A stretch of 52,491 nucleotides of DNA from a virus, in the IMG/VR virus record IMGVR_UViG_3300022905_000015, positions 1-52,491 of that record, one strand, 5' to 3'. Made by a program: the position numbers and the translations under genes. The first letter of the stretch is position 1, and each line of letters opens with the position of its first letter. The notes beneath the pieces were generated by a model that saw only the letters and a list, made by a program, of their open reading frames with translations, did no database searches and was not told the origin of the DNA. Positions 1-45,690 of the stretch are shown piece by piece.

Positions 1-123
1 GAGCATGACTGGGCATCCCACGGCGCTGATGCTTTTGGCTTGGTGGCCGTCTATCGACAGGGCATCCATCAATCCGACTCGTGGGATACGCCAATACGAA
101 GAAATATCGCGGGTGTAGCCTAA
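1..123 (+). CDS. Large terminase subunit, C-terminal fragment (second, distinct TerL)
   Basis: Frame 1 is open from the window edge to a TAA at 121-123 and gives 40 residues. They contain the segment HDWASHGADAFG, the usual C-terminal end of large terminase nuclease domains, where the final Asp lies in a HDW-SH-ADA context. TerL cuts and pumps DNA into the procapsid. The upstream part lies outside the window. This tail is unlike that of the complete TerL at 34209-35462, which ends in a VHDDLVDALAY context, so two different terminases are represented. The next gene starts about 50 bases downstream in the same direction. Assignment rests on one short motif. Confidence 0.7.
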   Translation, partial: EHDWASHGADAFGLVAVYRQGIHQSDSWDTPIRRNIAGVA

Positions 124-174
124 TCACTGTTTAGTGGTAAAATGTCCGAGTGATCACATACTTGGGACGCTCTG

Positions 175-1764
175 ATGGCGAAAAAGCAAGGCTTACTTGA
201 CGCACTGTCTGATTATTACGAAGGATTCTCATCGATCCCAAGCTCTGTGATGGGTTACATTGGCTCCACAGATTCATCAAAGATGGCGGATGACGCGACT
301 CAGTATGCAAAGCAGTCAGCAGAGGCGTTAGCAAAGCAGTTCAAAGAAGACCCATTCAACATGTTGCTCGACATGGCTCCAATCGTTGGAGAGGTCAGAG
401 CATTCATGGATGCAGAAGATCTGCGGACAGCGGCAGATCAGGCAGATCAGGTAGGCGATAAGAGCAAGGCTGAGAAACTACGCCAAGAAGCATCAATCAC
501 AATGACTGGTGCTATTCCACTGTTAGGTATGGCGGCTCGCGCAGGTAAAAAGATTGGTACTGCCGGAATGCAGATGACCAATGACGGAAAGCCGATATTG
601 CGTTCAGATATTGTTGGTGAAGAAAACATCGCAGTGCCTGATCAAGACATGATGTTGGCAAAGCGTTTGATCGATACAGGATTCCTCACTGTTCAATCTG
701 CCGGGAAGCCATCAAGCGTTAAAACAGCAATTAAAAATTACCGCAAAGCAATGCAGTCATCAAAAGCATTTGCAGACCGAGAAATGAGAGCCGCTGAAAA
801 CGATTTCCAAACAATCTTCACTCCAACTGATATCGGAGAGCGTACAACATTCAACCCAGAGACCTTGTTTGGCAAAGTAGTTATCCCGATTCAGGGTGAT
901 GTATCAAACCTTGGGTTGCTTGAGCGAGTTGGCGGGATCGATGTGGATACTCCTGTGCAAGCAGGAAACAAGTACAGTCAGCAATATAAAGACTCAGGCT
1001 TTGGTTGGCAGTCTATGTTGGATACAGCGCAGTCAGTCCAGAACAAAGTACGCACAGTAGCAGATGATACGGGTCAGGCTCCTGTTGGTGTTTACACAAC
1101 AATGGGCCTTGAGGCGACAAACTTCAGCACACCAATTGCTGAGGCAATGTTGAAGCAGATACAAAACTCAAAAATCACAAAAGCCGATAAAGCCGCTTTT
1201 GACAAAAAGCTCAGAAGCAAAACGATCAAAGACTCCAAGGGCCGTGTTAAAAAAGTATTTCCTGATTGGGTTGGGCTAGATCATCCTGATGCTATGGATC
1301 AGTTAATGGGCCAAGGAAAATACGAAAATATTGGCAAAAAGCGAACTGCGTTCACCACAACGATGAAGACAAACGACTTCAGAGATAGGGGCTTCCCAAA
1401 CTACAATGAGTTGTTGTTTGCCACACAAGACCCAGATTTGGTTAATGCGCCAATTAAAGGTTCCGGTCTTTCAACATACCAAACAATTATTGGCGATGCT
1501 GTTTATGACCCAACAATCCACAAAAGCTACACAGGCAGAATGCCGGGCCAATACTCTGGCGGGTTAGGTGGGTCAATCCCATTTGAAGTAATGTTCCCTG
1601 ATGCATTCGCAGAGCAAATGAAGCGCAAGACATCAGCAGGTGAGCCGTTTACGCCATCACAAGCTATTGATGCTGTCATGAAAAAACCTGAAGGGTTCCA
1701 GAGAATGGATGAGCGAACTGTGCAGGGCATCCTCGATTACATTAATCAATACGGGTTGAAGTAA
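175..1764 (+). CDS. Unknown 529-aa phage protein, probably virion-associated
   Basis: No family recognised with confidence. The protein starts at ATG 175 behind a weak GGGA. It has a hydrophilic Ala/Lys/Gln-rich first 100 residues, a short Gly/Ala hydrophobic patch near residues 112-132 (TGAIPLLGMAARAGKKIGTA) and a long mixed C-terminal half rich in Asp, Gly and Phe. Such Gly/Ala amphipathic stretches occur in phage internal or ejection proteins, but this is only suggestive. It follows a terminase end and its TAA overlaps the next ATG (TAATG), so it belongs to a coupled late operon. It has no counterpart in the other genome arm. Confidence 0.6.
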   Translation: MAKKQGLLDALSDYYEGFSSIPSSVMGYIGSTDSSKMADDATQYAKQSAEALAKQFKEDPFNMLLDMAPIVGEVRAFMDAEDLRTAADQADQVGDKSKAEKLRQEASITMTGAIPLLGMAARAGKKIGTAGMQMTNDGKPILRSDIVGEENIAVPDQDMMLAKRLIDTGFLTVQSAGKPSSVKTAIKNYRKAMQSSKAFADREMRAAENDFQTIFTPTDIGERTTFNPETLFGKVVIPIQGDVSNLGLLERVGGIDVDTPVQAGNKYSQQYKDSGFGWQSMLDTAQSVQNKVRTVADDTGQAPVGVYTTMGLEATNFSTPIAEAMLKQIQNSKITKADKAAFDKKLRSKTIKDSKGRVKKVFPDWVGLDHPDAMDQLMGQGKYENIGKKRTAFTTTMKTNDFRDRGFPNYNELLFATQDPDLVNAPIKGSGLSTYQTIIGDAVYDPTIHKSYTGRMPGQYSGGLGGSIPFEVMFPDAFAEQMKRKTSAGEPFTPSQAIDAVMKKPEGFQRMDERTVQGILDYINQYGLK

Positions 1765-2522
1765 TGGCTAATCCAAGTTTTATTGATCGCATTAACAACC
1801 CACAAGATTATCCATATGTGAAAAACCCAGATGGGTCGATATCTACTCACCGTATGGCGGCAGAGTATGATGAGGATAGTGGCCAGTGGATGGCCTTTCC
1901 AATGATCCAGATGCAGGGAGATCAACTCAAAGTTTACGAGGATGATCAGTTAAGGTCGGCAATGGACAGCGCGATAAAGTCTGGAAACTACTTGCCGATG
2001 CCAAGCAAAGAAGCGGCTATCGAATACTCAAAAGGTGGGTATAAAACAGACGCTCTGAATAATTTTGGTAAATCAATTTCAAATCAGAATCCATACGAAA
2101 ACTACGGCATCCTCGACTTGATCAACGATGTACCCTACTCGGAGCTACACAAGTTCTTCACAAAGGGTCATCAGACGTACTACAACAATGCGCCGCAGAT
2201 GATACAGGAGTTACGCCCAGAGCTAGCAGGTCAGCGTGTCGATCGCAACCTACAGGATCAAATGCTAAACTTTATCGGCGGGTACGACATGGCCGCACGA
2301 GGCATGAGTCCAGAGGCCGCAATGAGTGGAGCAAGAGCTTATCAGGGCAAACAGTATCTATTCAGTGATCGCAAGCCAGACGCTATTGGCGACTATGAAG
2401 AGAACGTAGCAGGAGTCCAAGCGTTTGACCCAGAGCAAGGAAGACTATCAGATGAGGCGCTGATTGATCTCGCTCTGAAGTTTGCTCGTGATAGAATGGC
2501 ACAAAGCCAGAGGAATCAGTAA
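1764..2522 (+). CDS. Unknown 252-aa phage structural-region protein
   Basis: The start codon overlaps the previous stop and its own stop overlaps the next start (TAATG at both ends), indicating translational coupling. The first 80 residues contain a segment around residues 22-75 (NPDGSISTHRMA, later EAAIEYSKGGYK) that I recognise as a recurring module in phage proteins of unknown function: a short beta-rich stretch that describes a setting followed by an AMDSAIKSGNYLPMPS-like helix. The rest is acidic, Gln/Asn-rich and has no membrane segment. Position between terminase and adaptor suggests a virion or head-completion role; that is inference. Confidence 0.55.
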   Translation: MANPSFIDRINNPQDYPYVKNPDGSISTHRMAAEYDEDSGQWMAFPMIQMQGDQLKVYEDDQLRSAMDSAIKSGNYLPMPSKEAAIEYSKGGYKTDALNNFGKSISNQNPYENYGILDLINDVPYSELHKFFTKGHQTYYNNAPQMIQELRPELAGQRVDRNLQDQMLNFIGGYDMAARGMSPEAAMSGARAYQGKQYLFSDRKPDAIGDYEENVAGVQAFDPEQGRLSDEALIDLALKFARDRMAQSQRNQ

Positions 2523-3130
2523 TGGCACTATCTAACTATGGCGAGCTAAAGACAGCGATCGCAGATTTCTTAAACAGGGATGATCTTACATCGGTCATTC
2601 CTACATTCGTTGCGCTTGCAGAATCACAGATAGCTCGTGACCTACGCCACTGGCGACAAGAGGTACGGGTAACTGCTGATCTAAACGAGCGGTTCGAGAA
2701 CCTGCCGACAGATTGGTTGGAAGGTGTTCACCTATACCTAAGTGATGGTGCGCCGGTAGAGTACGCATCAGTCGCGGAGATCGGACGCCAGAAGGTGCTG
2801 ACCAACGACACTGCAGGTAAGCCACGGCTATACACGTTGAACTCAGGTCAGATCGAGTTCTACCCTGCGCCTGATGAAACCTACACTCTCACAATGGTTT
2901 ACTTTGCTCGCATCCCAACAATGAGCGGTGACGCAGACGCAAACTGGCTCATGACTTATTACCCGGACGTTTACCTGTATGGCTCACTGCTACAGTCAGC
3001 ACCTTATCTAGCAGAAGATGCTAGAATCGCAGTGTGGGCGCAGTTATACAGCGCGGCAGTCAAGAATCTAGGCGATGATTCAGAGAAGGCTCGGTCATCA
3101 GGTGGGCCGCTCGTGATGAGGAATGCGTAA
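2522..3130 (+). CDS. Head-tail adaptor protein, SU10-like
   Basis: The 202-residue protein opens with ALSNYGELKTAIADFLNR, then DDLTSVIPTFVALAESQI and RDLRHWRQEVR. This N-terminal pattern is typical of adaptor (neck) proteins related to the one in phage SU10, which dock on the portal and connect it to the tail. The middle has the beta-rich core with LPTDWLEGVHLYL, and the C-terminal half is helical. The protein is about the usual length for that family. It is different from the T7 gp11-like protein at 10164-10808, so the window holds two unrelated solutions for the neck. It is TAATG-coupled to both neighbours. Confidence 0.7.
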   Translation: MALSNYGELKTAIADFLNRDDLTSVIPTFVALAESQIARDLRHWRQEVRVTADLNERFENLPTDWLEGVHLYLSDGAPVEYASVAEIGRQKVLTNDTAGKPRLYTLNSGQIEFYPAPDETYTLTMVYFARIPTMSGDADANWLMTYYPDVYLYGSLLQSAPYLAEDARIAVWAQLYSAAVKNLGDDSEKARSSGGPLVMRNA

Positions 3131-4617
3131 TGACCGAATGGACTCCTAACGTCACACCAACGACAACGTATGAGCAAGAAGCCGGGATGCTCCCATCCGG
3201 GGCAGGTGTTGACGAGAACATCCTCAATCTAACCACTCGCGCAGAGACAGCCGCTACCAACGCTGAAACAGCAGAGACAAACGCTGAGACTGCAGAGACC
3301 AATGCGGAAACTGCACAGGCCGCCGCTGAGTCAGCGCGTGATGCCGCTGTAGTCGCCCGCACTGGAGCAGAAACTGCCGAGACTAACGCAGAGACAGCGC
3401 AAACAGCCGCAGAAGCCGCTCAGACAGCCGCTGAGGCCGCTCAGACAGCCGCAGAGACGGCGGAAACAAATGCGGAAACCGCTGAGTCCAATGCACAGAC
3501 TTATGCCGCTAACGCGCTATCTAGTGCCAACGCATCGGCAAGTTCAGCAACAGACGCAGATACAGCAAAGACGGCGGCAGAGTCGGCAAGGGATGCAACG
3601 CTCGCGGCTTACGACAGTTTTGACGATCGCTACCTTGGTGCAAAGGCATCCGATCCTGCGACAGACAATGACGGCGATGCACTTGTAGGCGGGTCACTGT
3701 ACTTCAACACCACTGACGGCATCATGAAGCTCTATGACGGTAGTGCATGGGTAGCGGCTTATGTGTCAGCGTCCGGTGTGCTAACAGTCGCCAACAATCT
3801 ATCTGATCTTGGAGATGCGGCTACGGCTCGCACAAATCTAGGGTTAGGAACAGCGGCCACTACAGCGGCCACAGACTATGCGACAGCGGCTCAAGGAACA
3901 CTGGCGGCATCAGCAACACAGCCGGGCGACAACGTATCTACACTGACAAATGACGCAGGGTATCTAACGTCATACACTGAGACTGACCCGGTCTACACCG
4001 CATCATCTTGGTACACAACGACAAACAACTCAGGAAACTGGGACACAGCCTATGGATGGGGTGACCACTCCACTGCAGGTTATCTCACTAGCTTCACAGA
4101 GACTAACGATCTATCGACAGCGGTCACATGGGCCAACGTACCAGACGCTAACATCACACAGTCGTCAGTCACACAACATCAGGCGGCACTGTCGATCACA
4201 GAGAGCCAGATTAGTGACCTCCAGTCTTATCTCACATCTATTGCCGCTAACTCTGTAGGTATTACAGAGATCAACGTGACTGATGGTACTAACGGTCAGG
4301 TACTGACAACTAACGGTGCAGGTACGCTGTCGTTTGCTGATGCGTCCACTGTGGCGGCTCTCAATGACCTCACAGACGTATCAACCTCTGGCATCACTGA
4401 TGGGCAAACCATTGTATACAACTCAAGCACTACATCGTTTGAGCCGGGTACTGCAGGTGGTAATACAACAACCAATGGCCTGTGGGAACACAGTGCAACC
4501 ATTAGCGCTAACTACACAATTACATCAGGCAACAACGCAGTGGCGGCAGGGCCGATAGATATTGCAAGCGGTGTCACAGTAACTATTCCAAGCGGATCAA
4601 GGTGGGCTATCGTATGA
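3130..4617 (+). CDS. Modular tail fibre protein with Ala-rich coiled coil
   Basis: The 495-residue protein has three parts. Residues 1-30 are a probable virion-anchor segment. Residues about 36-155 are a low-complexity AETAETNAETA-type repeat, predicted to form a trimeric coiled coil. Then follow short fibre repeats, including YNTTDGIMKLYDGSAWV-like (about 190-207), ARTNLGLGTAAT and a block around 315-360 that is nearly the same in DNA as part of the fibre gene at 39921-41093. The C-terminus ends in a segment with AVAAGPIDIASGVTVTIPSG, a pattern repeated at the ends of two other fibre genes here. Likely role: trimeric host-recognition fibre. It is ATGA-coupled to the next gene. Confidence 0.75.
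   Translation: MTEWTPNVTPTTTYEQEAGMLPSGAGVDENILNLTTRAETAATNAETAETNAETAETNAETAQAAAESARDAAVVARTGAETAETNAETAQTAAEAAQTAAEAAQTAAETAETNAETAESNAQTYAANALSSANASASSATDADTAKTAAESARDATLAAYDSFDDRYLGAKASDPATDNDGDALVGGSLYFNTTDGIMKLYDGSAWVAAYVSASGVLTVANNLSDLGDAATARTNLGLGTAATTAATDYATAAQGTLAASATQPGDNVSTLTNDAGYLTSYTETDPVYTASSWYTTTNNSGNWDTAYGWGDHSTAGYLTSFTETNDLSTAVTWANVPDANITQSSVTQHQAALSITESQISDLQSYLTSIAANSVGITEINVTDGTNGQVLTTNGAGTLSFADASTVAALNDLTDVSTSGITDGQTIVYNSSTTSFEPGTAGGNTTTNGLWEHSATISANYTITSGNNAVAAGPIDIASGVTVTIPSGSRWAIV
4078..4133 (+). repeat. 56-bp exact DNA repeat shared by two fibre genes (copy A)
   Basis: These 56 bases are identical to 40806-40861, and high similarity continues to about 4220. The flanks of the two host genes differ much more. 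It encodes the fibre module YLTSFTETNDLSTAVTW. It could serve as a homologous linker for fibre exchange. Confidence 0.8.
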
Positions 4618-4802
4618 CAGTTACAATCAATGGAACAACAGGGATTGTCATGGAGGAGAACAAGGTAGAGCTTGGGTATTTCTCTAATGACGACAGCGTT
4701 GATACAGCCTTCACTGTGCCTAGTGGAGACAATGCGGCTATTGTCGGGCCTGTGACGGTCAATCAAACAATCACAGTAAACGGGACTCTGACGGTACTCT
4801 GA
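4614..4802 (+). CDS. Short tail-fibre-associated beta protein (62 aa)
   Basis: The ATG at 4614 overlaps the stop of the long fibre gene (ATGA), so I prefer it to an in-frame GTG at 4602. The protein is short and all-beta in character. Its last 28 residues follow the pattern GDNAAIVGP, then TVNQTITVNGTLTV. The same C-terminal pattern closes the proteins at 3130-4617 and 43285-43737. It is probably a tail-tip or fibre accessory domain made as a separate polypeptide. Function is unknown; the context is the only guide. Confidence 0.6.
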   Translation: MTVTINGTTGIVMEENKVELGYFSNDDSVDTAFTVPSGDNAAIVGPVTVNQTITVNGTLTVL

Positions 4803-4803
4803 T

Positions 4804-5343
4804 ATGGCAAGTGAACTCATAGTACAAACACTCAAGGGGCCAACTAGCGGGGCCAATGCGAACAAGGTGATTATCCCGTCTGGGCAGACGTTAGAGTGTT
4901 CTAGCGCAGTAGTTTCGCCGGGCAGTATCCTGCAAAAAACAACAGTGTCTCAAAATACTCAACAATCATTCACTTCAAGTAGCTATGCTGATACCAATGT
5001 TTATATTGAGCTAACCTCCGAACAAGCAAACTCTGACTTCTTTATGACGTTTTGTGTGGGGGTGTCACCAAATAATTTTTACAGTATTTATGGAAGACTT
5101 GTGCGCCGAATCTCTGGGCTGTCTGACGTTACTATATCGGAAGGTCGAGTTCATCGGGCGCAAGGGACATCAACTGGAGATGCCGATAGGCATTACCCAG
5201 TAACTTATATTGATTCTCCTAGTGCCGCCGCAGGAACTACGGTTCAATATATGTTCCAAGTTGCTAGCGGAAACAACGGCTCTATGGTGCGTGTTAACGA
5301 TAACTCCAACACTACCATTACCCTAATGGAGATCGCAGGATGA
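4804..5343 (+). CDS. Tail decoration protein, MEIAG family (alternative copy A)
   Basis: The 179-residue protein starts with ASELIVQTLKGPTSGANANK and a segment ending near residue 30. This part is almost identical to the protein at 43747-44289, and 71 bases of DNA are exactly shared. From about residue 31 the two proteins are unrelated in detail and the DNA becomes visibly richer in A/T. The body looks like a beta-sandwich (alternating hydrophobic strands with Ser/Thr-rich turns) and ends in ITLMEIAG, the signature of this gene array. It is ATGA-coupled to the next gene. Related short jelly-roll proteins are frequent in marine phage tail clusters. Receptor binding or tail decoration is inferred. 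Confidence 0.65.
   Translation: MASELIVQTLKGPTSGANANKVIIPSGQTLECSSAVVSPGSILQKTTVSQNTQQSFTSSSYADTNVYIELTSEQANSDFFMTFCVGVSPNNFYSIYGRLVRRISGLSDVTISEGRVHRAQGTSTGDADRHYPVTYIDSPSAAAGTTVQYMFQVASGNNGSMVRVNDNSNTTITLMEIAG
4822..4892 (+). repeat. 71-bp exact cassette-head repeat (copy A)
   Basis: These 71 bases are identical to 43765-43835. Immediately after the repeat the two genes diverge. It encodes the N-terminal segment of two otherwise different decoration proteins. Confidence 0.85.
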
Positions 5344-5380
5344 CAACACTCTATGTAGACAACATCGCCCCGAATCTCCA
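5326..5380 (+). repeat. 55-bp exact cassette-junction repeat (copy A)
   Basis: These 55 bases are identical to 44272-44326. They span the end of one decoration gene (MEIAG, stop) and the start of the next (ATGA overlap, MTTLYVDNIAPNLQ). The interiors on both sides differ between the copies. Confidence 0.85.
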
Positions 5381-5828
5381 AAGTAAGATCAGTGCGCCTA
5401 ACCTTCAGCTTCCTAGTGGGTCTGTGATTCAGGTTGTAGGTGCTAATGACATTATTACTGCAACTAACACTAACTCAACAAGTTTTACTGCTACTACACT
5501 AGCGGCCACAATTACGCCAACAAGTTCGTCTAGTAAAATTTTAGTTACAGCAACTTTTAGTGCCACACAAGATGGTGGTTCTAATGAACAAGCTCAAGTC
5601 ACCATTTATCGTGGGGCAACAAACTTGCGCCCTTCTGGAACTTGTAATTTTATGTATGACCATCCCGGTGGCAATGTAGGGTTTAGTGGAACTTATATGG
5701 TGTATGACAGCCCTGCTACAACCTCTGCAACAACCTACACTGTGTATATCAAAGTAAGTGGGTCAGGTTCATTTTTTAGAGCAGTAGCCGGGACAGACAC
5801 CATTACACTCATGGAGATCGCAGGATGA
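5340..5828 (+). CDS. Tail decoration protein, MEIAG family (copy A, 162 aa)
   Basis: The start overlaps the previous stop (ATGA). The protein begins TTLYVDNIAPNLQS and contains a typical strand pattern: SSSKILVTATFSATQDGGSN (about residues 62-81), then IYRGATNLRPSG and a final TDTITLMEIAG. It is an allele of the protein at 44286-44756. That one lacks a 6-residue stretch after residue 15, and many third-codon positions differ, although a stretch of about 70 bases near the 3' end is exact. It is probably a beta-sandwich tail-tip domain. The ATGA overlap with 5825 couples it to the next member of the array. Confidence 0.65.
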   Translation: MTTLYVDNIAPNLQSKISAPNLQLPSGSVIQVVGANDIITATNTNSTSFTATTLAATITPTSSSSKILVTATFSATQDGGSNEQAQVTIYRGATNLRPSGTCNFMYDHPGGNVGFSGTYMVYDSPATTSATTYTVYIKVSGSGSFFRAVAGTDTITLMEIAG

Positions 5829-6364
5829 GCAGTATAATCAAAGTCGATCAAATCCAACTGGCTGATGGCTCGACACCAACTGCGGGTGATCTTGGGTTGA
5901 ATGTTACTGGTAGCACTTTACAAACAGTCAACGCTGTTTTTTCTGGTTCAGAAACTTTTTCTTCTGATTCTTACGCAGATACTAGCTTAACGGCAACTAT
6001 CACTCCTTCCAGTACAAGCAGTAAAGTGCTTGTTTTAGTGACTCAAAGATTATTAGTTACAGAAGCTCAATCCGGTATTGGTTATGGAAACAACTCTAAT
6101 ATGGGATGGAAGGTAGTTAGAGATTCTACAGACCTTATGAACCCCGGTAGCGATAGCGGAGGTAAATACTCTATGGGGTTGGCCGCTTCTGACACAAGCA
6201 GTGGAAATCTTATGATGACTGCGTATATAAATTATGCATATTTGGATTCACCCGGTAAAGCAACAGCTTGCGTGTACAAAACACAAGCCGCAAAAGGAAC
6301 GTCCGGGATGGGTTCCGTTTACACAAGAGATGGATTTATCACCCTAATTGAAATCGCAGGCTAA
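5825..6364 (+). CDS. Tail decoration protein, MEIAG family (third of array)
   Basis: The 179-residue protein starts at the ATGA overlap. Its N-terminal segment, SSIIKVDQIQLADGSTP, resembles the short anchor peptides of the two preceding genes. It is followed by a strand-rich body (SETFSSDSYADTSLTATITP, then STSSKVLVLVTQRLL) and the terminal FITLIEIAG. Length and architecture match the other array members although sequence similarity is low. Likely a separate jelly-roll type domain of the tail tip. The next gene begins 11 bases downstream behind AAAGGAGAAA. An identical copy lies at 44753-45292. Confidence 0.65.
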   Translation: MSSIIKVDQIQLADGSTPTAGDLGLNVTGSTLQTVNAVFSGSETFSSDSYADTSLTATITPSSTSSKVLVLVTQRLLVTEAQSGIGYGNNSNMGWKVVRDSTDLMNPGSDSGGKYSMGLAASDTSSGNLMMTAYINYAYLDSPGKATACVYKTQAAKGTSGMGSVYTRDGFITLIEIAG

Positions 6365-6375
6365 AGGAGAAACAC

Positions 6376-6762
6376 ATGGCAAGCGTATCACAGGCTTTAT
6401 CAGAGCTTAATATTACAGAATGGGTTCTCCGTGGAGAGCCTACAACAGAGGCAGAGTTCAACGAAATGTTCCGCAAGGTCACTGGAGCAGACGCTAATGG
6501 TAGTGCCATTGAGTCAGCTAACTCAGCAGACTGGGGCGTAACGTGGACTGAAGTCTCTGCAAAGCAAGCAGAGCTTACAGCGGCAGAGCCTATGAAGGCA
6601 TTGCGTGCAGAGCGTGATCGTTTGATTGCCGCTACTGACTGGTGGGCATCATCTGATCTGACCATGACTGCTGAACAGACTGCATACCGTCAGGCACTGC
6701 GTGACATCACAGACACAGCAACTTCTTTAGATGACGTAACTTGGCCTACAAAGCCGGAGTAA
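6376..6762 (+). CDS. Phage tail assembly chaperone-like protein
   Basis: The 128-residue protein has a variable N-terminal half and a clearly recognisable C-terminal half: ALRAERDRLIAATDWWASSD, then AYRQALRDITDTATSLDDVT and WPTKPE. This is the pattern of the small phage tail assembly chaperone family (PF16778 type), which is nearly always encoded beside tail-fibre genes and helps fibre folding or attachment. A strong ribosome binding site, AAAGGAG, lies 7 bases upstream of the ATG. It sits between the decoration array and a carbohydrate-binding-like fibre protein, as expected for the family. Confidence 0.8.
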   Translation: MASVSQALSELNITEWVLRGEPTTEAEFNEMFRKVTGADANGSAIESANSADWGVTWTEVSAKQAELTAAEPMKALRAERDRLIAATDWWASSDLTMTAEQTAYRQALRDITDTATSLDDVTWPTKPE

Positions 6763-6765
6763 GAG

Positions 6766-7791
6766 ATGACTCGTGCAAGAGACTTAGCCAACGTAGCAGA
6801 TGACGTATCAACCGGGACGGTGGTGACCACTGCATCTCCATCGTTGGGGCGCAGGAATCTCATCATCAATGGTGCGATGCAGGTGGCACAGCGTGGGACG
6901 AGTATTACGTTAGGTGCAGGAACAGGGACGTATACGCTAGATAGGGTGCGATCTCAGTCAAACGGTGGCGGTATTACAGTCTCACAAGAAACAAATGCAA
7001 TCAGTGGTATTGGAACACAGAAGATGTGCCGTTACACAGGTGCATCAGGTGTCACAGGCGTTTATTACATTTATCGTATTGAGAGTAAGGATGTTGCTCA
7101 GATTAACGGCAACAGCGTTACTTTCTCCATCTATATAGAAAACAACTCTGGTGCAAGTATTAGTCCTACTATTGATTACTACCATCCGACAGCGGCAGAT
7201 AACTTTAGTGGTAATACAACTGTTGCAAGTGGAGTAGCATTGGGAACTGTTGCTAACGGTAGTTCAGCCAGATTAACTGCAACAACTGATGTAAGTGGCA
7301 CAACAATTACTAATGGCCTAATGTTACAAGTTAATTTTGGATCAGCACTTACATCGGGCACTATTGATTTCACCGGAGTCCAACTAGAAGTCGGCTCTGT
7401 TGCGACACCTTTCGAGCATCGCTCATTCGGGGAGGAGCTTGCGTTGTGTCAGAGGTATTATGAAGTTTTAGCAAATGGGGCCGATAGCTCTTCCGGTTGT
7501 ATAGGTAGTGGTAATTACTACACCTCAACTAGTTTTCATTTACCTGTTAAATTTCAAGTACAAAAAAGAACCACATCATATTCATTAGATCAGGTAACGG
7601 GAACATACTTTTATCGTGTCTATCGTGAAAGCGGAAACGATCAATTTGATTCATTTGGCTTAACTCGCAAAGGCGCACAATCTTGTACGTTATATAAAGG
7701 AAGTGGTTCAGTATCTAGCACGGCGGGAAATGGTGGCGAATTCTTATGCAATAATGCTAGTGCTTTTGTTGCTATTGATAATGAGTTATAG
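6766..7791 (+). CDS. Tail fibre protein, 'NLIINGAMQVAQRG' type
   Basis: The 341-residue protein starts TRARDLANVADD, a common phage fibre anchor, followed by the well-known segment RRNLIINGAMQVAQRGTS (about residues 29-46). Then comes a beta-sandwich resembling carbohydrate-binding modules and ending in FTGVQLEVGSVATPFEHRSF (about 200-219) and ELALCQRYYE. The last 110 residues are a separate C-terminal domain that probably differs between relatives and may bind the receptor. No catalytic motif is visible. The gene lies 3 bases after the chaperone stop. Role in adsorption is inferred from family resemblance and position. Confidence 0.75.
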   Translation: MTRARDLANVADDVSTGTVVTTASPSLGRRNLIINGAMQVAQRGTSITLGAGTGTYTLDRVRSQSNGGGITVSQETNAISGIGTQKMCRYTGASGVTGVYYIYRIESKDVAQINGNSVTFSIYIENNSGASISPTIDYYHPTAADNFSGNTTVASGVALGTVANGSSARLTATTDVSGTTITNGLMLQVNFGSALTSGTIDFTGVQLEVGSVATPFEHRSFGEELALCQRYYEVLANGADSSSGCIGSGNYYTSTSFHLPVKFQVQKRTTSYSLDQVTGTYFYRVYRESGNDQFDSFGLTRKGAQSCTLYKGSGSVSSTAGNGGEFLCNNASAFVAIDNEL

Positions 7792-7799
7792 GGGTTGAT

Positions 7800-7988
7800 A
7801 TGGATATTGTTTTGGCAAAATACACAAAGGCTCCAACAGAAACAGAAAATACTGCGGTGTATGTAGTTTTAAATACAAACCCATCAAGGGCATTGTCAGT
7901 CCCACTAGACCCTGCCAACCGCCACTACGCAGAAATCATGCGTCAGGTTGATGCGGGTGAGCTAACCATACAAGAAGCAGACAGCTAA
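7800..7988 (+). CDS. Small tail-region protein (62 aa) with NRHYAEI motif
   Basis: The protein contains the segment DPANRHYAEIMRQVDAGELT (residues 38-57), common in short phage proteins encoded next to fibre and chaperone genes. There it appears as a chaperone-like or fibre-linked domain of unknown function. There is no membrane segment. It begins 8 bases after the fibre gene, behind ATAGGGG, and is followed by the lysis cluster. Confidence 0.6.
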   Translation: MDIVLAKYTKAPTETENTAVYVVLNTNPSRALSVPLDPANRHYAEIMRQVDAGELTIQEADS

Positions 7989-7997
7989 GGACGGAGT

Positions 7998-8189
7998 GTG
8001 AAAGAGATGGCAACAGAAAGCACGAAAACTTTAGTAGACGGTTTAAGTGTAGTCACTGTGGTAGGAACGATTGGTGAACTGTTGCCTCCGATGGCGGCGT
8101 TGTTTACATTAGTATGGACAGCAATAAGGATCTACGAGACAAAGACAGTACAGAGGTTATTGGGCAAGGACAGCCCCGATGATAGCTGA
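7998..8189 (+). CDS. Small holin with possible dual start
   Basis: The 63-residue protein has one or two hydrophobic segments (about residues 17-44: VVTVVGTIGELLPPMAALF, then TLVWTAIRIYE), a charged C-terminus and small size, as in T7-like holins. Holins open the inner membrane at a set time. Two starts are possible: GTG 7998 (AAGGA, 6-base spacer) and ATG 8007 (GGAG, 10-base spacer). The long form adds only Met-Lys-Glu before the second Met. This resembles the lambda S107/S105 antiholin-holin arrangement, in which an extra N-terminal Lys delays lysis. The gene overlaps the next one by 11 bases. Confidence 0.65.
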   Translation: MKEMATESTKTLVDGLSVVTVVGTIGELLPPMAALFTLVWTAIRIYETKTVQRLLGKDSPDDS

Positions 8190-8619
8190 ACTCGCCGCCG
8201 CTAATGCGGCCTTTGGCGTTATCAAAGAAACCATCGCCAATGGTAAAGAACTGTATGAAGCAGGACAGGCACTAGCAGACTACTTTGGCCTCAAGGCTGA
8301 GATACAAAAGAAAGCACATGAACACGGATATAAGTCTGACCTTGAAGCGTTCATGGCCACAGAGCAACTTAAAGAATATGAGGATGCTCTGAAACAAATG
8401 ATGATCTGGCAAGGGCGAGCCGGGTTATGGACAGATTGGTTAGACTACCAGAGTAAGATGAAAGAAAGCCGTGAAGCCGCAGAGAAAGCTGAGAAAGCCA
8501 AGAAAGCTAAACGTAAAAAACAAATTGTTGATATTTGTATTAGCATCGGTTTGGGCGTTAGCGTTCTCTCAGCCATTGGCTTGGTAATATACATCTTCTA
8601 TTGGCTCAGTAAACAGTAG
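8179..8619 (+). CDS. C-terminally membrane-anchored coiled-coil protein in lysis cluster
   Basis: The 146-residue protein is mainly helical and charged. Residues about 94-115 form a Lys/Glu/Ala-rich helix (EAAEKAEKAKKAKRKKQ), and residues 117-142 are a single strong transmembrane segment followed by a short WLSKQ tail. The topology is that of a tail-anchored protein, unlike lambda Rz, which has its anchor at the N-terminus. It overlaps the holin gene and precedes a small secreted-like protein and a second holin. A lysis or membrane-linked function is suggested by context only. Confidence 0.55.
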   Translation: MIAELAAANAAFGVIKETIANGKELYEAGQALADYFGLKAEIQKKAHEHGYKSDLEAFMATEQLKEYEDALKQMMIWQGRAGLWTDWLDYQSKMKESREAAEKAEKAKKAKRKKQIVDICISIGLGVSVLSAIGLVIYIFYWLSKQ

Positions 8620-8626
8620 GTCACCT

Positions 8627-8809
8627 ATGTGGTTATTATTTGCAATCCTAATTCAGTCTGATAGCTACGCTGTCTATCCTCAAGGGCCATTTGCAACAAT
8701 GGACGAGTGCTTTGAAGCCCGTGAGTATTTCATGGCAACAGCACCACAGCCTAAGATAAACTATGAAGCAGTGTGTGTACAGACGGATGTAACAGGAAAT
8801 GCCTCATGA
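8627..8809 (+). CDS. Small probably exported protein (60 aa, two Cys)
   Basis: The N-terminus (MWLLFAILIQSDSYA) is a short hydrophobic signal-like sequence without a lipobox. The mature part has PQGPFATMDECFEAREYFMA and AVCVQTD, so two cysteines could form a disulphide in the periplasm. The gene overlaps the next by ATGA. I know similar small phage proteins with this Cys pair but no function for them. In a lysis cluster it might assist outer-membrane disruption, but without a lipidation site it is not a classic o-spanin. Confidence 0.5.
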   Translation: MWLLFAILIQSDSYAVYPQGPFATMDECFEAREYFMATAPQPKINYEAVCVQTDVTGNAS

Positions 8810-9171
8810 TTGGGTTAGTCACAGCTATCACGGACTTGGCAGGTACATGGGTCAAGAGCAAGGCGGAATCAACCAAGGCCACCGCAGAGGCCAAAGCCAC
8901 CGCACTGAAAACAGCGGCACAGTCCACAGCGGATTGGGAACGCATCATGGCCGAGTCATCCAAGAACTCGTGGAAAGACGAGTGGTTAACGATAGTATTC
9001 AGCATCCCCTTGATACTTGTCTTTATACCAAGCATGGTAGGACATATCCAAGCGGGGTTCAACGCATTGGCAACTTTGCCGATTTGGTATCATGAGATTC
9101 TCATGGTAATTGTACTGGCCTCATTCGGTGTCAAAGCCGGTAAAGGTCTTATGGAAACATTAAGGAAATAA
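8806..9171 (+). CDS. Second holin, GTA/3TM-holin type
   Basis: I choose ATG 8806, which overlaps the previous stop (ATGA), over an in-frame GTG at 8773. The 121-residue protein has an N-terminal amphipathic Ala/Lys/Thr helix, then SWKDEWLTIVFSIPLILVF (about residues 54-72) and a second hydrophobic pair around 80-112 (LATLPIWYHEILMVIVLA, then SFGVKAGKG). This matches the three-TM holin family first described in gene transfer agents (PF11351 type). Together with the small holin at 7998 the phage carries two candidate membrane-permeabilising proteins. The endolysin genes lie elsewhere (32.7-34.2 kb). Confidence 0.7.
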   Translation: MIGLVTAITDLAGTWVKSKAESTKATAEAKATALKTAAQSTADWERIMAESSKNSWKDEWLTIVFSIPLILVFIPSMVGHIQAGFNALATLPIWYHEILMVIVLASFGVKAGKGLMETLRK

Positions 9172-9173
9172 TC

Positions 9174-9416: not shown

Positions 9417-9417
9417 G

Positions 9418-10105: not shown

Positions 10106-10108
10106 GGG

Positions 10109-10137
10109 TTGACATTTGCACAAAAGTGTGCTATAAT
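10109..10137 (+). promoter_or_regulatory. Consensus sigma70-type promoter
   Basis: TTGACA (10109-10114) and TATAAT (10132-10137) are separated by exactly 17 bases. TGC directly before the -10 makes it an extended -10. The spacer holds the short inverted repeat GCACA-N4-TGTGC. It would drive the tail tube and internal protein genes starting at 10164. Confidence 0.9.
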
Positions 10138-10163
10138 ATTAATCTCTTAAGTAGGAAACGCAA

Positions 10164-39920: not shown

Positions 39921-41093
39921 ATGGCTATCTTTCGTGGTATTGGTGGTGCAGGTGATTCAACAACTGACGCTACAGTTACTGAAGTAACTCAGCAAGCAAC
40001 TAACGCCGCCGCATCTGCAACAGCCGCCTCCTCTTCAGCTTCATCAGCCGCTACTTCAGCAAGTAATGCGGCAACCTCAGAAAGCAATGCCGCTACCTCT
40101 GCAACTAATGCGGCTACCTCTGAGTCTAATGCAAGTACCTCCGCAACTAATGCCGCAAGCTCTGCTACTACAGCATCGACAGCGGCTACAGCGGCTCAGA
40201 CTGCTCAGACTGCCGCAGAAGCGGCTCAAACAGCGGCAGAAACTGCAGAGACTAATGCATCTACTTCAGCCACGTCAGCGGCTTCTAGTGCAACCTCAGC
40301 GGCATCTTCAGCATCTGCGGCAAACACAAGTGAAACGAATGCGGCCACAAGCGAGACAAACGCCGCTACGTCAGAAACTAATGCGGCTACATCAGCGACT
40401 ACGGCACAGAGCGCACAGACTGCGGCAGAGGCGGCAAGAGATGAGGCTGTAGCGGCACAAGAAGCAATTGATGGTTTGTATCTTGGAGCGCAAACATCTG
40501 ATCCCACATTAGACAATAATGGTGATCCAGTTACTGCAGGTGATTGGTATTACAATACATCCACTGGTGTAACTCGTATCTACGATGGTAGTGCTTGGGT
40601 TAATGGTGCAGTCTCTACCGCTTCTTTTCTATTAGCGGCTAACAACTTATCAGACCTTACTAATGCGACTACAGCACGTACTAACTTAGGTCTTGGTACT
40701 GCGGCTACGACAGCATCTACAGACTATGCGACAGCCGCACAAGGTACACTAGCTGATAGTGCTACTCAGCCCGGAGACAACATCTCCACATTAACTAATG
40801 ACTCTGGTTATCTCACTAGCTTCACAGAGACTAACGATCTATCGACAGCGGTCACATGGGCAAACGTACCAGACGCTAACATTACGCAGTCTTCAGTCAC
40901 ACAACATCAGGCGGCACTGTCGATCACAGAGTCACAGATCAGCGACTTTGGCACATACGCTACATCCGCAGAGTTAACATCAGCAACAGCCAACTCAGGC
41001 AACTGGGACACTGCATACTCATGGGGTGATCACTCAGTCGCAGGATACGGGACAACTGACGAGGCTCTTGCACTCGCAATCGCACTAGGATAG
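39921..41093 (+). CDS. Modular tail fibre protein with Ala/Ser-rich coiled coil
   Basis: The 390-residue protein starts AIFRGIGGAGDSTTDATVTE, a probable virion-attachment segment. Residues about 30-165 are a low-complexity ASSATTAS/ETNAATSET repeat, predicted as a trimeric coiled coil. Then come YNTSTGVTRIYDGSAWVNG, ARTNLGLGTAAT and the fibre module that is nearly identical in DNA to the gene at 3130-4617. The C-terminus has GNWDTAYSWGDHSVAGYGTT. It is the first gene of the fibre region and likely the shaft of the main fibre. ATG is preceded by GGAGAG. Confidence 0.75.
   Translation: MAIFRGIGGAGDSTTDATVTEVTQQATNAAASATAASSSASSAATSASNAATSESNAATSATNAATSESNASTSATNAASSATTASTAATAAQTAQTAAEAAQTAAETAETNASTSATSAASSATSAASSASAANTSETNAATSETNAATSETNAATSATTAQSAQTAAEAARDEAVAAQEAIDGLYLGAQTSDPTLDNNGDPVTAGDWYYNTSTGVTRIYDGSAWVNGAVSTASFLLAANNLSDLTNATTARTNLGLGTAATTASTDYATAAQGTLADSATQPGDNISTLTNDSGYLTSFTETNDLSTAVTWANVPDANITQSSVTQHQAALSITESQISDFGTYATSAELTSATANSGNWDTAYSWGDHSVAGYGTTDEALALAIALG
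40806..40861 (+). repeat. 56-bp exact DNA repeat shared by two fibre genes (copy B)
   Basis: Identical to 4078-4133; similarity continues for about 85 bases with a few changes. The surrounding parts of the two genes differ strongly. Confidence 0.8.
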
Positions 41094-41097: not shown

Positions 41098-41406
41098 ATG
41101 GCAAACACGTTCAAGAATTACACATCGGCATCTGTAGGCACATCACCTGTGACGGTCTACACAGTGCCATCAGCAACCACTGCGGTTGTCATCGGGTGCA
41201 ACGTAGCAAACCGCACAGCATCGTCCATTACTGTGGATGTACAGCTAGGGTCTACCTACATCGTGAAAGGCGCACCAGTGCCTGCAGGATCAGCCCTGAG
41301 CGTACTGGACGGCAAGATCATTGCAGAGACTACAGAGACTATTGTGGTGACATCTGATACCGCAAGCAGTGCTGACGTAATCCTGAGTGTACTGGAGCAA
41401 AGCTAA
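41098..41406 (+). CDS. Small tail protein (102 aa)
   Basis: The product starts ANTFKNYTSASVGTSPVTVY and has AVVIGCNVANRTASSITVDV and APVPAGSALSVLDGKIIAET. This short beta-sandwich protein type is common in phage tail regions and is probably a virion component. Base composition is clearly richer in G/C than in the next gene, which fits separate acquisition of modules. Its stop overlaps the next start (TAATG). Confidence 0.65.
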   Translation: MANTFKNYTSASVGTSPVTVYTVPSATTAVVIGCNVANRTASSITVDVQLGSTYIVKGAPVPAGSALSVLDGKIIAETTETIVVTSDTASSADVILSVLEQS

Positions 41407-43076
41407 TGGCAGGCTATATTGGTAAGGCACAGTCTTTAGCCAACCTATCTGAAGCAGATACTTTAGATTCTGTAACGGGGCGTGGAGCCACTACAGCAAA
41501 TGATTTATCGCTAACTGGCGATCTCAGCGTAGACGGCGGCACAATCAAACTGGATGGGAATTATCCGGTTGGTACGGAAAACGTAGCTTTGGGTAATGAG
41601 GCTTTAGATGCCTTAACTTCAGGTGGTGATTACAACACAGCCCTTGGTTATGCGGCATTGACAGCTAATACATCCGGGCAAAGAAATACTGCGGTTGGTC
41701 GTACAGCAATGTCATCAAATGCTACTGGCTCATATAATACTGCTGTTGGTATGGCTTCACTAAGTGCTAGTGGTTCTGGAAATTCTAACACCGGACTGGG
41801 ATATAATGCCTTAGCAAATAATACTACTGCCTCTAACAACACTGCTGTCGGTTTTGAGGCACTTGTTGTAAACACCACAGGTACACAGAACGTGGCTGTT
41901 GGTTATTTAGCATTAGATGCAAACACCACAACAAGTAATAATACAGCTATTGGTGGAAATTCACTTTCTGCAAACATAGCGCACAATAATACAGCACTTG
42001 GATATAACACGTTTGCTGTCAACACCACAGGCACAGACGGTGTAGCTATCGGTGCATATGCGCTAGATTCTAATACGACAGGTACAAATAATGTTGGTAT
42101 AGGACGAGACGCATTAGGAGCAAACACCACAGGTGCATCAGGGACGGCAGTCGGTTATCAGGCAGGAGGTAGCGTCACTACTGGTAGTGGCAATAGTTAT
42201 TTCGGGATGCAAGCAGGATATTCAAATACAACAGGGATATTCAATACTGCTGTTGGTTACAATGCTCTTTATACAAGCACAGCAAGTTACAACACAGCCT
42301 GTGGTATGTATGCGCTCAGATATACTACGTCAGGAGGATATAATACTGCTGTTGGTTACAATGCTTTACAAGGCAATACTACGGCTACATTCAATACTGC
42401 GCTAGGTTGGTCAGCATTATCCGCCAGTACAACTGGAGACAGCAACGTAGCTGTCGGAGTATCGGCATCAGGTAACCTTACGACTGGTTCGCAAAATACT
42501 GTTATGGGACGGTATGCAGGTGGAGCAATTACAACCGGAAACGAAAATGTCGTCATTGGACATTACGCAGGTGCTTCTGGGACAAACGATTTAACAACTG
42601 GTTCGTATAACGTCTTAATCGGAAGATTGGCTCATATGTCCAGTGCAAGTGGGCAAGAGCAAATCGTTATTGGATTCAATGCTCAAGGTAAAGGTAACAA
42701 CACGACCTTTGTTGGTGGCGGTTCAGGTGCTTATCAGGCAAACAATTCATCATCTTGGTCAACAACGTCAGATGAGCGTCTGAAAAAGAACATCGTTGAT
42801 AACACAGATGGTCTAGACAAGATCAATGCCATTCAAGTCCGCAACTTTGAATATCGCACTGAAGATGAAATCACAGAACTTGAGCCATCAAATGTCATTC
42901 AGATTGAAGGCACTCAGCTTGGTGTTATCGCTCAAGAGATCCAACAAGTTTGCCCACAGATGGTCAAAGAAGAGTCAACAGGTGTTTTATCCGTCGATAC
43001 AGACAATTTAGTCTGGTATTTAATTAACGCTGTTAAGGAATTATCAGCCAAAGTCGAAGCATTGGAGAACGCATAA
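41406..43076 (+). CDS. Tail fibre/spike with S74 self-cleaving chaperone domain
   Basis: The 556-residue protein has a short N-terminal part (AGYIGKAQSLANLSEADTLD), about 20 degenerate repeats of the form NTAVGYNALxxNTTG between residues 60 and 410 (trimeric beta-roll like those of adhesins), and a C-terminal intramolecular chaperone of the S74 peptidase kind. Ser455 and Lys460 lie in TSDERLKKN, followed by GVIAQEIQQV. The chaperone trimerises the fibre and cuts itself off. The repeats could bind host surface sugars. The stop overlaps the next ATG (TAATGG). Confidence 0.88.
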   Translation: MAGYIGKAQSLANLSEADTLDSVTGRGATTANDLSLTGDLSVDGGTIKLDGNYPVGTENVALGNEALDALTSGGDYNTALGYAALTANTSGQRNTAVGRTAMSSNATGSYNTAVGMASLSASGSGNSNTGLGYNALANNTTASNNTAVGFEALVVNTTGTQNVAVGYLALDANTTTSNNTAIGGNSLSANIAHNNTALGYNTFAVNTTGTDGVAIGAYALDSNTTGTNNVGIGRDALGANTTGASGTAVGYQAGGSVTTGSGNSYFGMQAGYSNTTGIFNTAVGYNALYTSTASYNTACGMYALRYTTSGGYNTAVGYNALQGNTTATFNTALGWSALSASTTGDSNVAVGVSASGNLTTGSQNTVMGRYAGGAITTGNENVVIGHYAGASGTNDLTTGSYNVLIGRLAHMSSASGQEQIVIGFNAQGKGNNTTFVGGGSGAYQANNSSSWSTTSDERLKKNIVDNTDGLDKINAIQVRNFEYRTEDEITELEPSNVIQIEGTQLGVIAQEIQQVCPQMVKEESTGVLSVDTDNLVWYLINAVKELSAKVEALENA

Positions 43077-43285
43077 TGGAAGAACTCACAGCAGAACAAA
43101 TCGCACAGCACTACTCAGCCGCTATGGACTCAGTGAACCTGTTGAACGCAGGACAACCAGACGACATGAGCGATGATGACTGGGCTGATTGTGTTGCACG
43201 AAACAAAGAACACTTACGGATCATGTTAGCTAAGGACTTCTGGACTGATGAAGACCTTACACCATTACAGGAAGCGAGTGCATAA
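43076..43285 (+). CDS. Small acidic protein after the S74 fibre (69 aa)
   Basis: Acidic, helical product (TAEQIAQHYSAAMDSVNLLN, DDMSDDDWADCVARNKEHLR). No recognised domain. TAATG overlaps at both ends couple it to fibre genes; chaperone activity for the fibre is a guess from position and size. Confidence 0.55.
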   Translation: MEELTAEQIAQHYSAAMDSVNLLNAGQPDDMSDDDWADCVARNKEHLRIMLAKDFWTDEDLTPLQEASA

Positions 43286-43737
43286 TGTCAGGTTACATCG
43301 GAAACATCCCAGTACCACAGGCTACGCAGACTCGTGACAACTTCACAGCCACTGCAAGCCAGACTACCTTTGCTACCTCTGGGTACACTCCGGGCTACCT
43401 TGACGTATACCTCAACGGTGTACACTTAGACCCTACAGACTACACAGCCGCTAACGGCACTGATGTGGTGTTGGCTACTGGAGCGACTGCAGGTGACGTA
43501 CTATCAGTGGTGGCATTCACTACCTTTGAACTAGCAGGGCCGGCAGGTGCGGGATACTTCCTTGGTGAGAACGGTGCTACTGGCGACACTACGAATGGCC
43601 TAGGTGACATCTTCAGGGTGCATGAGGATGCCCTTGATACTGCAGTGACCATTGCCGCTAACACCAACGCATCAGCCACTGGCCCACTGACATTGAATGC
43701 GACAGTGACGGTCAACGGCACACTGACGATTGTATAA
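43285..43737 (+). CDS. Short tail fibre-like protein (150 aa)
   Basis: The protein starts SGYIGNIPVPQATQTRDNFT, then TATASQTTFATSGYTPGYLD and VYLNGVHLDPTDYTA. This N-terminal domain of about 85 residues is widespread in marine phage tail proteins. The C-terminal 40 residues close with ASATGPLTLNATVTVNGTLT, the same end pattern as in the genes at 3130 and 4614. It looks like a modular beta protein of the tail tip. Confidence 0.72.
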   Translation: MSGYIGNIPVPQATQTRDNFTATASQTTFATSGYTPGYLDVYLNGVHLDPTDYTAANGTDVVLATGATAGDVLSVVAFTTFELAGPAGAGYFLGENGATGDTTNGLGDIFRVHEDALDTAVTIAANTNASATGPLTLNATVTVNGTLTIV

Positions 43738-44326: not shown

Positions 44327-44756
44327 GAGTCGTGTATCAGTGCCGGGTCATGTGATTCAGGTTGTAGGTGCTAATGACATTATTACTGCAACTAACACTA
44401 ACTCAACAAGTTTTATCGCTACGACACTAGCGGCCACAATTACGCCAACAAGTACATCTAGTAAAATTTTAGTTACGGCAACATTTAGTGCTACTCAAGA
44501 CGGTGGCTCTAATGAACAAGCATATGTACAAATTTATCGTGGAGCGTCTAATCTTAGGCCATCAGGCACTCCACAGTTTATGTATGATCATCCCGGTGGC
44601 AACGTGGGTTTCAGCGGGACATATATGTTTTATGATTCTCCTGCTACGACATCCGCAACAACTTACACTGTGTATATCAAAGTAAGTGGGTCAGGTTCAT
44701 TTTTTAGAGCAGTAGCCGGGACAGACACCATCACACTCATGGAGATCGCCGGATGA
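44286..44756 (+). CDS. Tail decoration protein, MEIAG family (copy B, 156 aa)
   Basis: Allele of the gene at 5340-5828, shorter by six residues after residue 15, with many synonymous and some amino-acid changes in the middle (for example YVQIYRGASNLRPSG against QVTIYRGATNLRPSG) but an identical junction start and near-identical last 25 codons. It keeps the STSSKILVTATFSATQDGGS strand pair and the final TDTITLMEIAG. The two last base differences between the arms lie in its final codons. Confidence 0.65.
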   Translation: MTTLYVDNIAPNLQSRVSVPGHVIQVVGANDIITATNTNSTSFIATTLAATITPTSTSSKILVTATFSATQDGGSNEQAYVQIYRGASNLRPSGTPQFMYDHPGGNVGFSGTYMFYDSPATTSATTYTVYIKVSGSGSFFRAVAGTDTITLMEIAG

Positions 44757-45292
44757 GCAGTATAATCAAAGTCGATCAAATCCAACTGGCTGATGGCTCG
44801 ACACCAACTGCGGGTGATCTTGGGTTGAATGTTACTGGTAGCACTTTACAAACAGTCAACGCTGTTTTTTCTGGTTCAGAAACTTTTTCTTCTGATTCTT
44901 ACGCAGATACTAGCTTAACGGCAACTATCACTCCTTCCAGTACAAGCAGTAAAGTGCTTGTTTTAGTGACTCAAAGATTATTAGTTACAGAAGCTCAATC
45001 CGGTATTGGTTATGGAAACAACTCTAATATGGGATGGAAGGTAGTTAGAGATTCTACAGACCTTATGAACCCCGGTAGCGATAGCGGAGGTAAATACTCT
45101 ATGGGGTTGGCCGCTTCTGACACAAGCAGTGGAAATCTTATGATGACTGCGTATATAAATTATGCATATTTGGATTCACCCGGTAAAGCAACAGCTTGCG
45201 TGTACAAAACACAAGCCGCAAAAGGAACGTCCGGGATGGGTTCCGTTTACACAAGAGATGGATTTATCACCCTAATTGAAATCGCAGGCTAA
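44753..45292 (+). CDS. Tail decoration protein, MEIAG family (second copy)
   Basis: Identical to the product of 5825-6364. Here it follows copy B of the array by an ATGA overlap, so both alternative upstream sets lead into the same third decoration protein, which has the DNA-conserved start and the FITLIEIAG end. Confidence 0.65.
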   Translation: MSSIIKVDQIQLADGSTPTAGDLGLNVTGSTLQTVNAVFSGSETFSSDSYADTSLTATITPSSTSSKVLVLVTQRLLVTEAQSGIGYGNNSNMGWKVVRDSTDLMNPGSDSGGKYSMGLAASDTSSGNLMMTAYINYAYLDSPGKATACVYKTQAAKGTSGMGSVYTRDGFITLIEIAG

Positions 45293-45303
45293 AGGAGAAA
45301 CAC

Positions 45304-45690
45304 ATGGCAAGCGTATCACAGGCTTTATCAGAGCTTAATATTACAGAATGGGTTCTCCGTGGAGAGCCTACAACAGAGGCAGAGTTCAACGAAATGTTCC
45401 GCAAGGTCACTGGAGCAGACGCTAATGGTAGTGCCATTGAGTCAGCTAACTCAGCAGACTGGGGCGTAACGTGGACTGAAGTCTCTGCAAAGCAAGCAGA
45501 GCTTACAGCGGCAGAGCCTATGAAGGCATTGCGTGCAGAGCGTGATCGTTTGATTGCCGCTACTGACTGGTGGGCATCATCTGATCTGACCATGACTGCT
45601 GAACAGACTGCATACCGTCAGGCACTGCGTGACATCACAGACACAGCAACTTCTTTAGATGACGTAACTTGGCCTACAAAGCCGGAGTAA
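45304..45690 (+). CDS. Phage tail assembly chaperone-like protein (second copy)
   Basis: Identical to 6376-6762, with the same C-terminal ATDWWASSD ... WPTKPE pattern and AAAGGAG ribosome binding site. Probably one physical gene seen twice because the contig overlaps itself. Confidence 0.8.
   Translation: MASVSQALSELNITEWVLRGEPTTEAEFNEMFRKVTGADANGSAIESANSADWGVTWTEVSAKQAELTAAEPMKALRAERDRLIAATDWWASSDLTMTAEQTAYRQALRDITDTATSLDDVTWPTKPE

Follow-up and report, generated by a model that had tools for sequence, protein, structure and literature searches.

The three small overlapping genes at positions 4804 to 6364 of the viral DNA analysed here are probably, and with good confidence, best explained as an array of small adhesins with bodies that are swapped as blocks by recombination. 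The whole stretch that was analysed, here called the window, is a complete IMG/VR record of 52491 bases (IMGVR_UViG_3300022905_000015), classed as linear. It carries the array twice, and a reading made from this sequence only had taken the two sets for two arms of one genome; instead, the path that the assembler took in the window runs through two phages, named A and B, that share the array. The features discussed are the following.

1..5822, + strand: phage B stretch with genes for 529-aa and 252-aa proteins, SU10-type adaptor, stem, 66-aa protein and slots 1 and 2; 100% identical to 3300022907_000007 from base 68794
4804-5343, + strand: slot 1 gene of phage B, 179 aa, with conserved head MASELIVQTLKGPTSGANANK..., unique body and MEIAG end
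5340-5828, + strand: slot 2 gene of phage B, 162 aa, body diverged from that of A (pS 0.39, pN 0.06)
5825-6364, + strand: slot 3 gene, 179 aa, identical in both paths, ending GAA ATC GCA GGC TAA (uncoupled)
6376..6762 = 45304-45690, + strand: Phage_tail_APC-type gene (PF16778; E 3.8e-14 for 45304-45690) directly after the array
39921..41093, + strand: tail-fibre stem-like gene of phage A, upstream of the array, without Pfam match
41406..43076, + strand: fibre gene with a C-terminal Peptidase_S74 intramolecular chaperone
43285..43737, + strand: 150-aa tail-fibre-like gene before slot 1, phage A
43747-44289, + strand: slot 1 gene of phage A, 180 aa, with the head of B and an unrelated body, modelled as a TNF/C1q-type jelly roll (pLDDT 81)
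44286-44756, + strand: slot 2 gene of phage A, 156 aa, body modelled as a TNF-like lectin fold (pLDDT 80; Z 15.6 to PLTL)
44753-45292, + strand: slot 3 gene, second copy in the contig, 179 aa
4822-4892 = 43765-43835: exact 71-bp run inside the slot-1 head
5326-5380 = 44272-44326: exact 55-bp run across the slot 1/slot 2 junction, with GGAG 8 nt before the next ATG
5823..6549: exact 727-bp stretch common to both paths (three-path comparison), with gene 3 and the start of the tail-assembly-chaperone gene
44751..45477: the 727-bp stretch traversed for the second time (three-path comparison)

In each set, three successive small genes are present where the sequence-only reading had placed them, and each consists of a short head, one beta domain and a conserved end. 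The ...MEIAG end with the ATGA overlap, which had been ascribed to all three, holds for the first two genes of each set; the third ends in ...IEIAG with TAA, followed by a separate AGGAG and then by the next ATG. Both exact runs were confirmed, and that stretch has no further one of at least 20 bp; however, exact conservation does not extend to the first 18 nt of the slot-1 head, which are only 61% identical in DNA, yet encode the same protein sequence, MASELI. As had been claimed, the slot-1 body is replaced, with identity at chance level after nt ~90 and again at 100% in the last 18 nt, and the slot-2 body is diverged to the extent listed above. Gene 3 is 100% identical between the two sets, lying within an exact 7741-bp repeat (5823-13563 = 44751-52491) that the self-comparison of the window revealed and that runs up to the contig end.

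The array proteins could not be placed convincingly in any family by Pfam or PHROG scans. Among the neighbouring genes, the stem-like gene of A has 98% DNA identity with its counterpart in genome G005, though the major capsid proteins (MCP) are only 63% identical, while the stem counterpart of B, at 3130-4617, matches tail-fibre PHROGs; the 150-aa gene is conserved at 91-98% DNA identity in several otherwise diverged phages. The Peptidase_S74 fibre protein is 556 aa long and carries NTALGYxAL-type repeats. Elsewhere in the window, four consecutive small lysine-rich genes (MPLKI..., MPLAI..., MPLKK... and MPTKK...), at 9174-10105 and again at 48102-49033, precede the adaptor gene.

Related loci were gathered from viral contigs with gene 3, gene 2, the slot-1 head and the junction as queries, and by a search for genes ending in GGATGA, whose counts refer to the matches listed. 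The order of the heads and the junctions recur in at least dozens of other IMG/VR contigs, and several groups of aquatic phages have such an array. Chaining of the small genes revealed three head classes, MASELIVQTLKGPTSGANANK, MTTLYVDNIAPNLQS and MSSIIKVDQIQLADG, in the fixed order 1-2-3, so that comparison between strains gives a constant order of slots, each with its own head class of ~25-30 residues, an exchangeable body of ~120 residues and the ...MEIAG end. Coupling by ATGA is found at the end of slots 1 and 2 in 98 of the 101 distinct genes among the matches listed, and slot 3 is mostly without it. When genes are anchored at their start, DNA identity over the first 90 nt is ~0.4-0.84, with the top values in slots 1 and 3; it drops to ~0.3 further on and is back at 0.8-0.9 in the last 18 nt. 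The window array proteins found no direct relative in annotated phages by tblastn; relatives there appeared only with other loci as queries, and two scans of bacterial and archaeal genome contigs gave no confirmed relative. Besides the window, only four records contain its two slot-1 bodies, without any difference over the body, and the donors of these bodies were not found in the records searched. The 23.8-kb record 3300018048_000062 (locus L213) contains, at 9372-11486 and around 232-717, a canonical array and a second four-gene array with different heads, the bodies of which match slot bodies from other phages; this may be real or a further chimera.

The fold of the bodies was predicted with AlphaFold monomer models built on alignments of the window and locus proteins (pLDDT 81 for slot 1 and 80 for slot 2). 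The heads are of low confidence, and the bodies, starting near residue 44 in slot 1 and residue 23 in slot 2, are both modelled as TNF/C1q-type jelly rolls, that is, beta-sandwiches of about ten strands. VIA-align placed first the TNF-like lectin PLTL (Z 14.6 for slot 1, 15.6 for slot 2), with the N-terminal lectin of BC2L-C (Z 13.8 and 15.1), the C-terminal domain of Pgp3 and C1q and TNF domains among the other top matches; the jelly roll shared with the two lectins is a predicted one, and sequence identity to them is 8-16%. None of the window array proteins matched a Pfam C1q (PF00386) or TNF profile, and they are therefore not filed as Pfam C1q members. BFVD contains this fold in many proteins of uncultured phages, some of them short and others longer and fibre-like. 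The modelled bodies resemble sugar-binding lectins in fold; homotrimer formation and carbohydrate binding are candidate features.

It is unlikely that the array proteins are instead assembly chaperones or transient fibre caps that are not adhesins of the virion. Their genes do sit between fibre genes and the Phage_tail_APC gene, and in Alteromonas phages, for example, caps are found among the small proteins encoded behind a fibre gene (PMC10579305); however, the caps described there have an alpha-helical body with beta-hairpins, unlike the lectin-type jelly roll modelled here, and caps should co-vary with one fibre, not swap bodies between slots.

The short junction between the coupled genes has a function of its own. 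ATGGAGATCGCAGGATGA puts GGAG eight bases upstream of the next ATG, and the codon used for the terminal Glu follows the coupling: among the matches listed, it is GAG in 99 of 102 coupled versus 4 of 43 uncoupled genes (Fisher P 4e-27), the uncoupled ones having GAA in 39 of 43; inside the genes, GAA accounts for 72%. The contrast persists in loci found otherwise than by the junction pattern, and the arrays of the cultured phages P-SSP7 and Lederberg likewise have GAG in coupled genes and GAA in the last gene of a coupled run. To judge from these sequences, the junction encodes the Shine-Dalgarno of the next gene, and its conservation is at least partly translational. Since the end of each gene contains both the Shine-Dalgarno and the start codon of the following one, the array genes are probably coupled in translation; as the ribosome-binding site constrains this DNA, its conservation alone does not point to a recombination site, although the junction may additionally serve crossover.

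This bears on the proposal that whole bodies are exchanged at conserved linkers, which was largely borne out, as blocks do switch at the linkers, except that conservation of the junction alone is no evidence for it. Linkers and bodies did not show the same divergence: across genomes, heads and junctions are far more conserved than bodies. The comparison of phage A with 3300034375_000790 is exemplary, with identity at 4-fold sites of 0.43-0.51 in TerL, portal and MCP and of 0.90-1.00 in the stem, 102-aa and 150-aa genes, the heads of slots 1 and 3 and the chaperone gene, while the array bodies are 27-38% identical in amino acids. Heads and junctions are near-identical in DNA between phages with capsid genes saturated at synonymous sites, and the bodies are unrelated. 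In the slot-1 head of the window, 18 nt with 61% identity and the same protein are followed by the 71 exact bp, so that protein constraint alone is an insufficient explanation.

Moreover, near-identical bodies are found behind different heads, with the switch at the head/body border and at ATGGAGATCGCAGGATGA; such DNA matches across heads support a movement of bodies as blocks, also from one slot to another, in which the switches fall at the linkers. The gene at 9372 of L213 and slot 1 of L015 share 475 bp at 98.5%, in a match that begins at the head/body border, extends to the ATGA and is preceded by different heads and followed by different genes; the gene at 10414 of L213 and slot 3 of L032 share 460 bp at 93.5%; slot 1 of L093 and slot 3 of L213 share 386 bp at 95.3%, with the switch at KLLNVYQ / VINVYQ. 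Slot 1 of L005 and slot 2 of L011 have 454 bp in common at 98.9%, but their identity runs on into slot 3 and beyond, and may thus reflect a deletion that fused a slot-1 head to a slot-2 body. Further, more diverged matches of this kind exist. The uncultured sequences are metagenome assemblies, and a chimeric join, taken singly, could have arisen as an error of assembly; however, near-identical bodies flanked on both sides by different heads, and from separate samples, make such an error hard to invoke. Bodies common to different heads have pN/pS of 0.07-0.19, and values of 0.28-0.54 in some same-slot body pairs indicate that point divergence under weaker constraint also occurs.

It is improbable, in view of these data, that selection acting differently on the parts of the genes would account for the pattern without exchange, with heads and junctions constrained by tail binding and by the ribosome-binding site and with bodies diverging fast by point mutation under host pressure. 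The Shine-Dalgarno and overlapping start codon carried by the junction and the conservation of the heads as protein agree with such a view, but not the near-identity of the heads at 4-fold sites in genomes saturated elsewhere, one body occurring behind different heads at 93-99% DNA identity, or the purifying selection on most shared bodies; at the level of sequence, the sharing of bodies across heads already contradicts pure differential selection, unless these cases are assembly errors.

The composition of the window follows from comparison with longer records. Phage A is a circle of ~38.9 kb with its own Terminase_6 large subunit, SU10-type portal and capsid protein; phage B, with a genome of probably ~36 kb, has its own terminase, portal, capsid and nozzle genes, and the hallmark proteins of the two have no similarity apart from a weak portal match. 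In 3300022907_000007 (74742 bases), bases 1-39273 correspond to window 6423-45695, and bases 68794-74742 to window 1-5949, with 100% identity; the interval between them, 39274-68793, encodes the nozzle, portal (PF23899, E 6e-193), capsid, lysis and helicase genes of the other phage and also a Terminase_3 large subunit. This record has two terminases, two portals and two capsid proteins, and in it the phage B stretch 1..5822, the adaptor of which belongs to Pfam PF24175, sits downstream of the TerL of B. Also 3300045135_000252 (73626 bases; loci L087-L090) has two terminases and two capsid proteins, together with an A-type portal, an 828-aa gene in portal position and array genes near both joins. 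Thus, as far as their gene content tells, the window and these two records of 73-75 kb each appear to contain parts of two phages.

The joins point to the assembler. The three paths (window left, window right and the 74.7-kb record) have zero variable columns over 44751-45477; 3300022907_000007 ends 127 bp into this 727-bp stretch (window 5949), where 3300022925_000873 also ends, and starts 127 bp before the end of it (window 6423 = 45351). Contig ends exactly 127 bp inside a shared stretch are what an unresolved k=127 node of the assembly graph would be expected to leave, 127 being the presumable k value of the assembly, and an array stretch identical in two co-occurring phages would have led the assembler to fuse A and B; the contigs fit either pairing of the upstream halves (U1/U2) with the downstream halves (D1/D2) across it. 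A true duplication in one phage genome of ~52 kb or ~75 kb with two arrays is very improbable: two arrays are present in each of the 52-, 74.7- and 73.6-kb records, and the window, 3300022907_000007 and 3300022909_000099 all cross between the gene sets of the two phages at this stretch, but the doubled terminase, portal and capsid genes of the 74.7-kb record, the 100% identity of the window repeats over 7.7 kb up to the contig end and the 127-bp offsets speak against it, as does Octadecabacter Antarctic DB virus 2, which among cultured relatives has the portal closest to that of B (48% identity) and which has 39.2 kb and one set. Window 1-52491 is thus to be treated as chimeric as regards its length and the predictions made from it (host, completeness, duplicated genes); in general, tail modules shared between phages make metagenome assemblers fuse them, and this affects genome size, host prediction and claims of duplicated genes.

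According to the explanation by block exchange, the three genes would form an array of small adhesins in the tail-fibre locus: a position-specific N-terminal head would plug each protein into the tail, the body would be the modelled TNF/C1q-type, sugar-binding-lectin-like jelly roll, and the C-terminus a short conserved strand. Recombination between phages, even those with unrelated capsid and packaging genes, would replace bodies as whole blocks, with crossovers at the border of head and first strand and at the MEIAG/ATGA junction, and a body could also land behind the head of another slot, as seen in the sequence matches; different bodies presumably bind different surface glycans. The roles in "tail decoration" and "host range" given to these genes by the sequence-only reading are consistent with the neighbourhood and the fold, which suggest putative receptor binding; the host range might then change independently.

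The likely agents are the annealing recombinases of the phages themselves. Phage B encodes a Sak single-strand annealing protein (SSAP_Sak, E 4e-43) and a YqaJ exonuclease (E 3e-25), and phage A a 5'-3' exonuclease-like protein; phage annealing proteins promote exchange between diverged sequences (PMC3945230). In locus L085 (17116-18366), the Sak annealing protein of phage B adjoins the YqaJ exonuclease, as a Red-like recombination pair. A dedicated variation machine (a diversity-generating retroelement, an invertase or an integron-like shufflon) is hardly credible: a repeated short junction does flank the exchangeable blocks, but searches of the window record and the 74.7-kb record, which may be incomplete, gave no match to reverse transcriptase (PF00078) or to serine and tyrosine recombinases (PF00239, PF00589), which counts against it, and so do the low pN/pS in most shared bodies and the lack of a template-like repeat in the window self-comparison. 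A wider form of block exchange is possible, but only tentatively put forward: a combinatorial pool of adhesins across phages, in which any lectin body may stand behind any of the three heads and each position is re-tipped independently, the head/body border and the ribosome-binding-site junction acting as universal joining sites across otherwise unrelated phages.

Some elements of this picture are already known, namely rows of small tail genes in cultured phages and the swapping of receptor modules in Ackermannviridae and T-even phages. The TSP1-4 clusters of Ackermannviridae likewise combine several receptor-binding proteins having position-specific N-termini with exchangeable C-terminal modules; one receptor module is found there on different TSP types, a conserved motif has been suggested as crossover site, and homologous recombination was shown experimentally (PMC11414711, PMC8432352). 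Both position-specific conserved N-termini and one C-terminal module behind different N-termini are found in the present array; however, Ackermannviridae have large tail spikes with gp10-like XD domains, unlike these ATGA-coupled jelly-roll proteins of ~170 aa in phages with SU10-type portal and adaptor. Neither gp10-like XD domains nor a beta-helix tail spike was found in the array proteins, which have no Pfam match and bodies modelled as jelly rolls; the array thus works like the Ackermannviridae clusters, but is not a member of them.

C1q-type putative receptor-binding proteins are also described for marine metaviromic islands (Mizuno 2014, PMC3909814) and cryoconite phages (Bellas 2020, PMC7468147), the former with a better-recruiting N-terminus and a hypervariable C1q part, the latter with variants of hypervariable proteins that interchange by recombination; the inference there comes mainly from read recruitment, and the passages considered here do not describe a slot-specific three-gene array with block transfer across slots. 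In T-even phages, recombination at conserved motifs is reported to exchange the specificity of the distal tail-fibre adhesin (Tetart 1998), and in Alteromonas phages fibre modules are common to unrelated phages (PMC10579305), as here; those systems have a single long fibre or adhesin, whereas the present one is an array of short one-domain proteins. A slot-specific array of one-domain lectin-fold genes, with slot-to-slot block transfers at a domain border and an embedded ribosome-binding site, was not found described in the one open-access library searched, in which no useful paper on the P-SSP7 virion proteome was found either.

The tail tips of abundant aquatic phages are among their most variable parts, and the mode of variation has mostly been deduced from read recruitment; in this array, the exchanged unit, its borders and its moves between positions can be seen at base resolution, and coincide with a structural domain and a ribosome-binding site. 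Among cultured phages, Puniceispirillum HMO-2011, Prochlorococcus P-SSP7 and Pelagibacter Lederberg likewise have tandem overlapping genes for proteins of ~100-210 aa, several ending in ...EIA/EVA; such rows are annotated as small tail-fibre genes in HMO-2011, P-SSP7 and MEP402 and are present unnamed in Lederberg. The heads in P-SSP7 and HMO-2011 differ from those of the window slots, while the head MTSIIKVDQIQ of Lederberg is of the slot-3 type, and its array is followed by a chaperone-like gene; with these three cultured relatives, the function of the array becomes testable.
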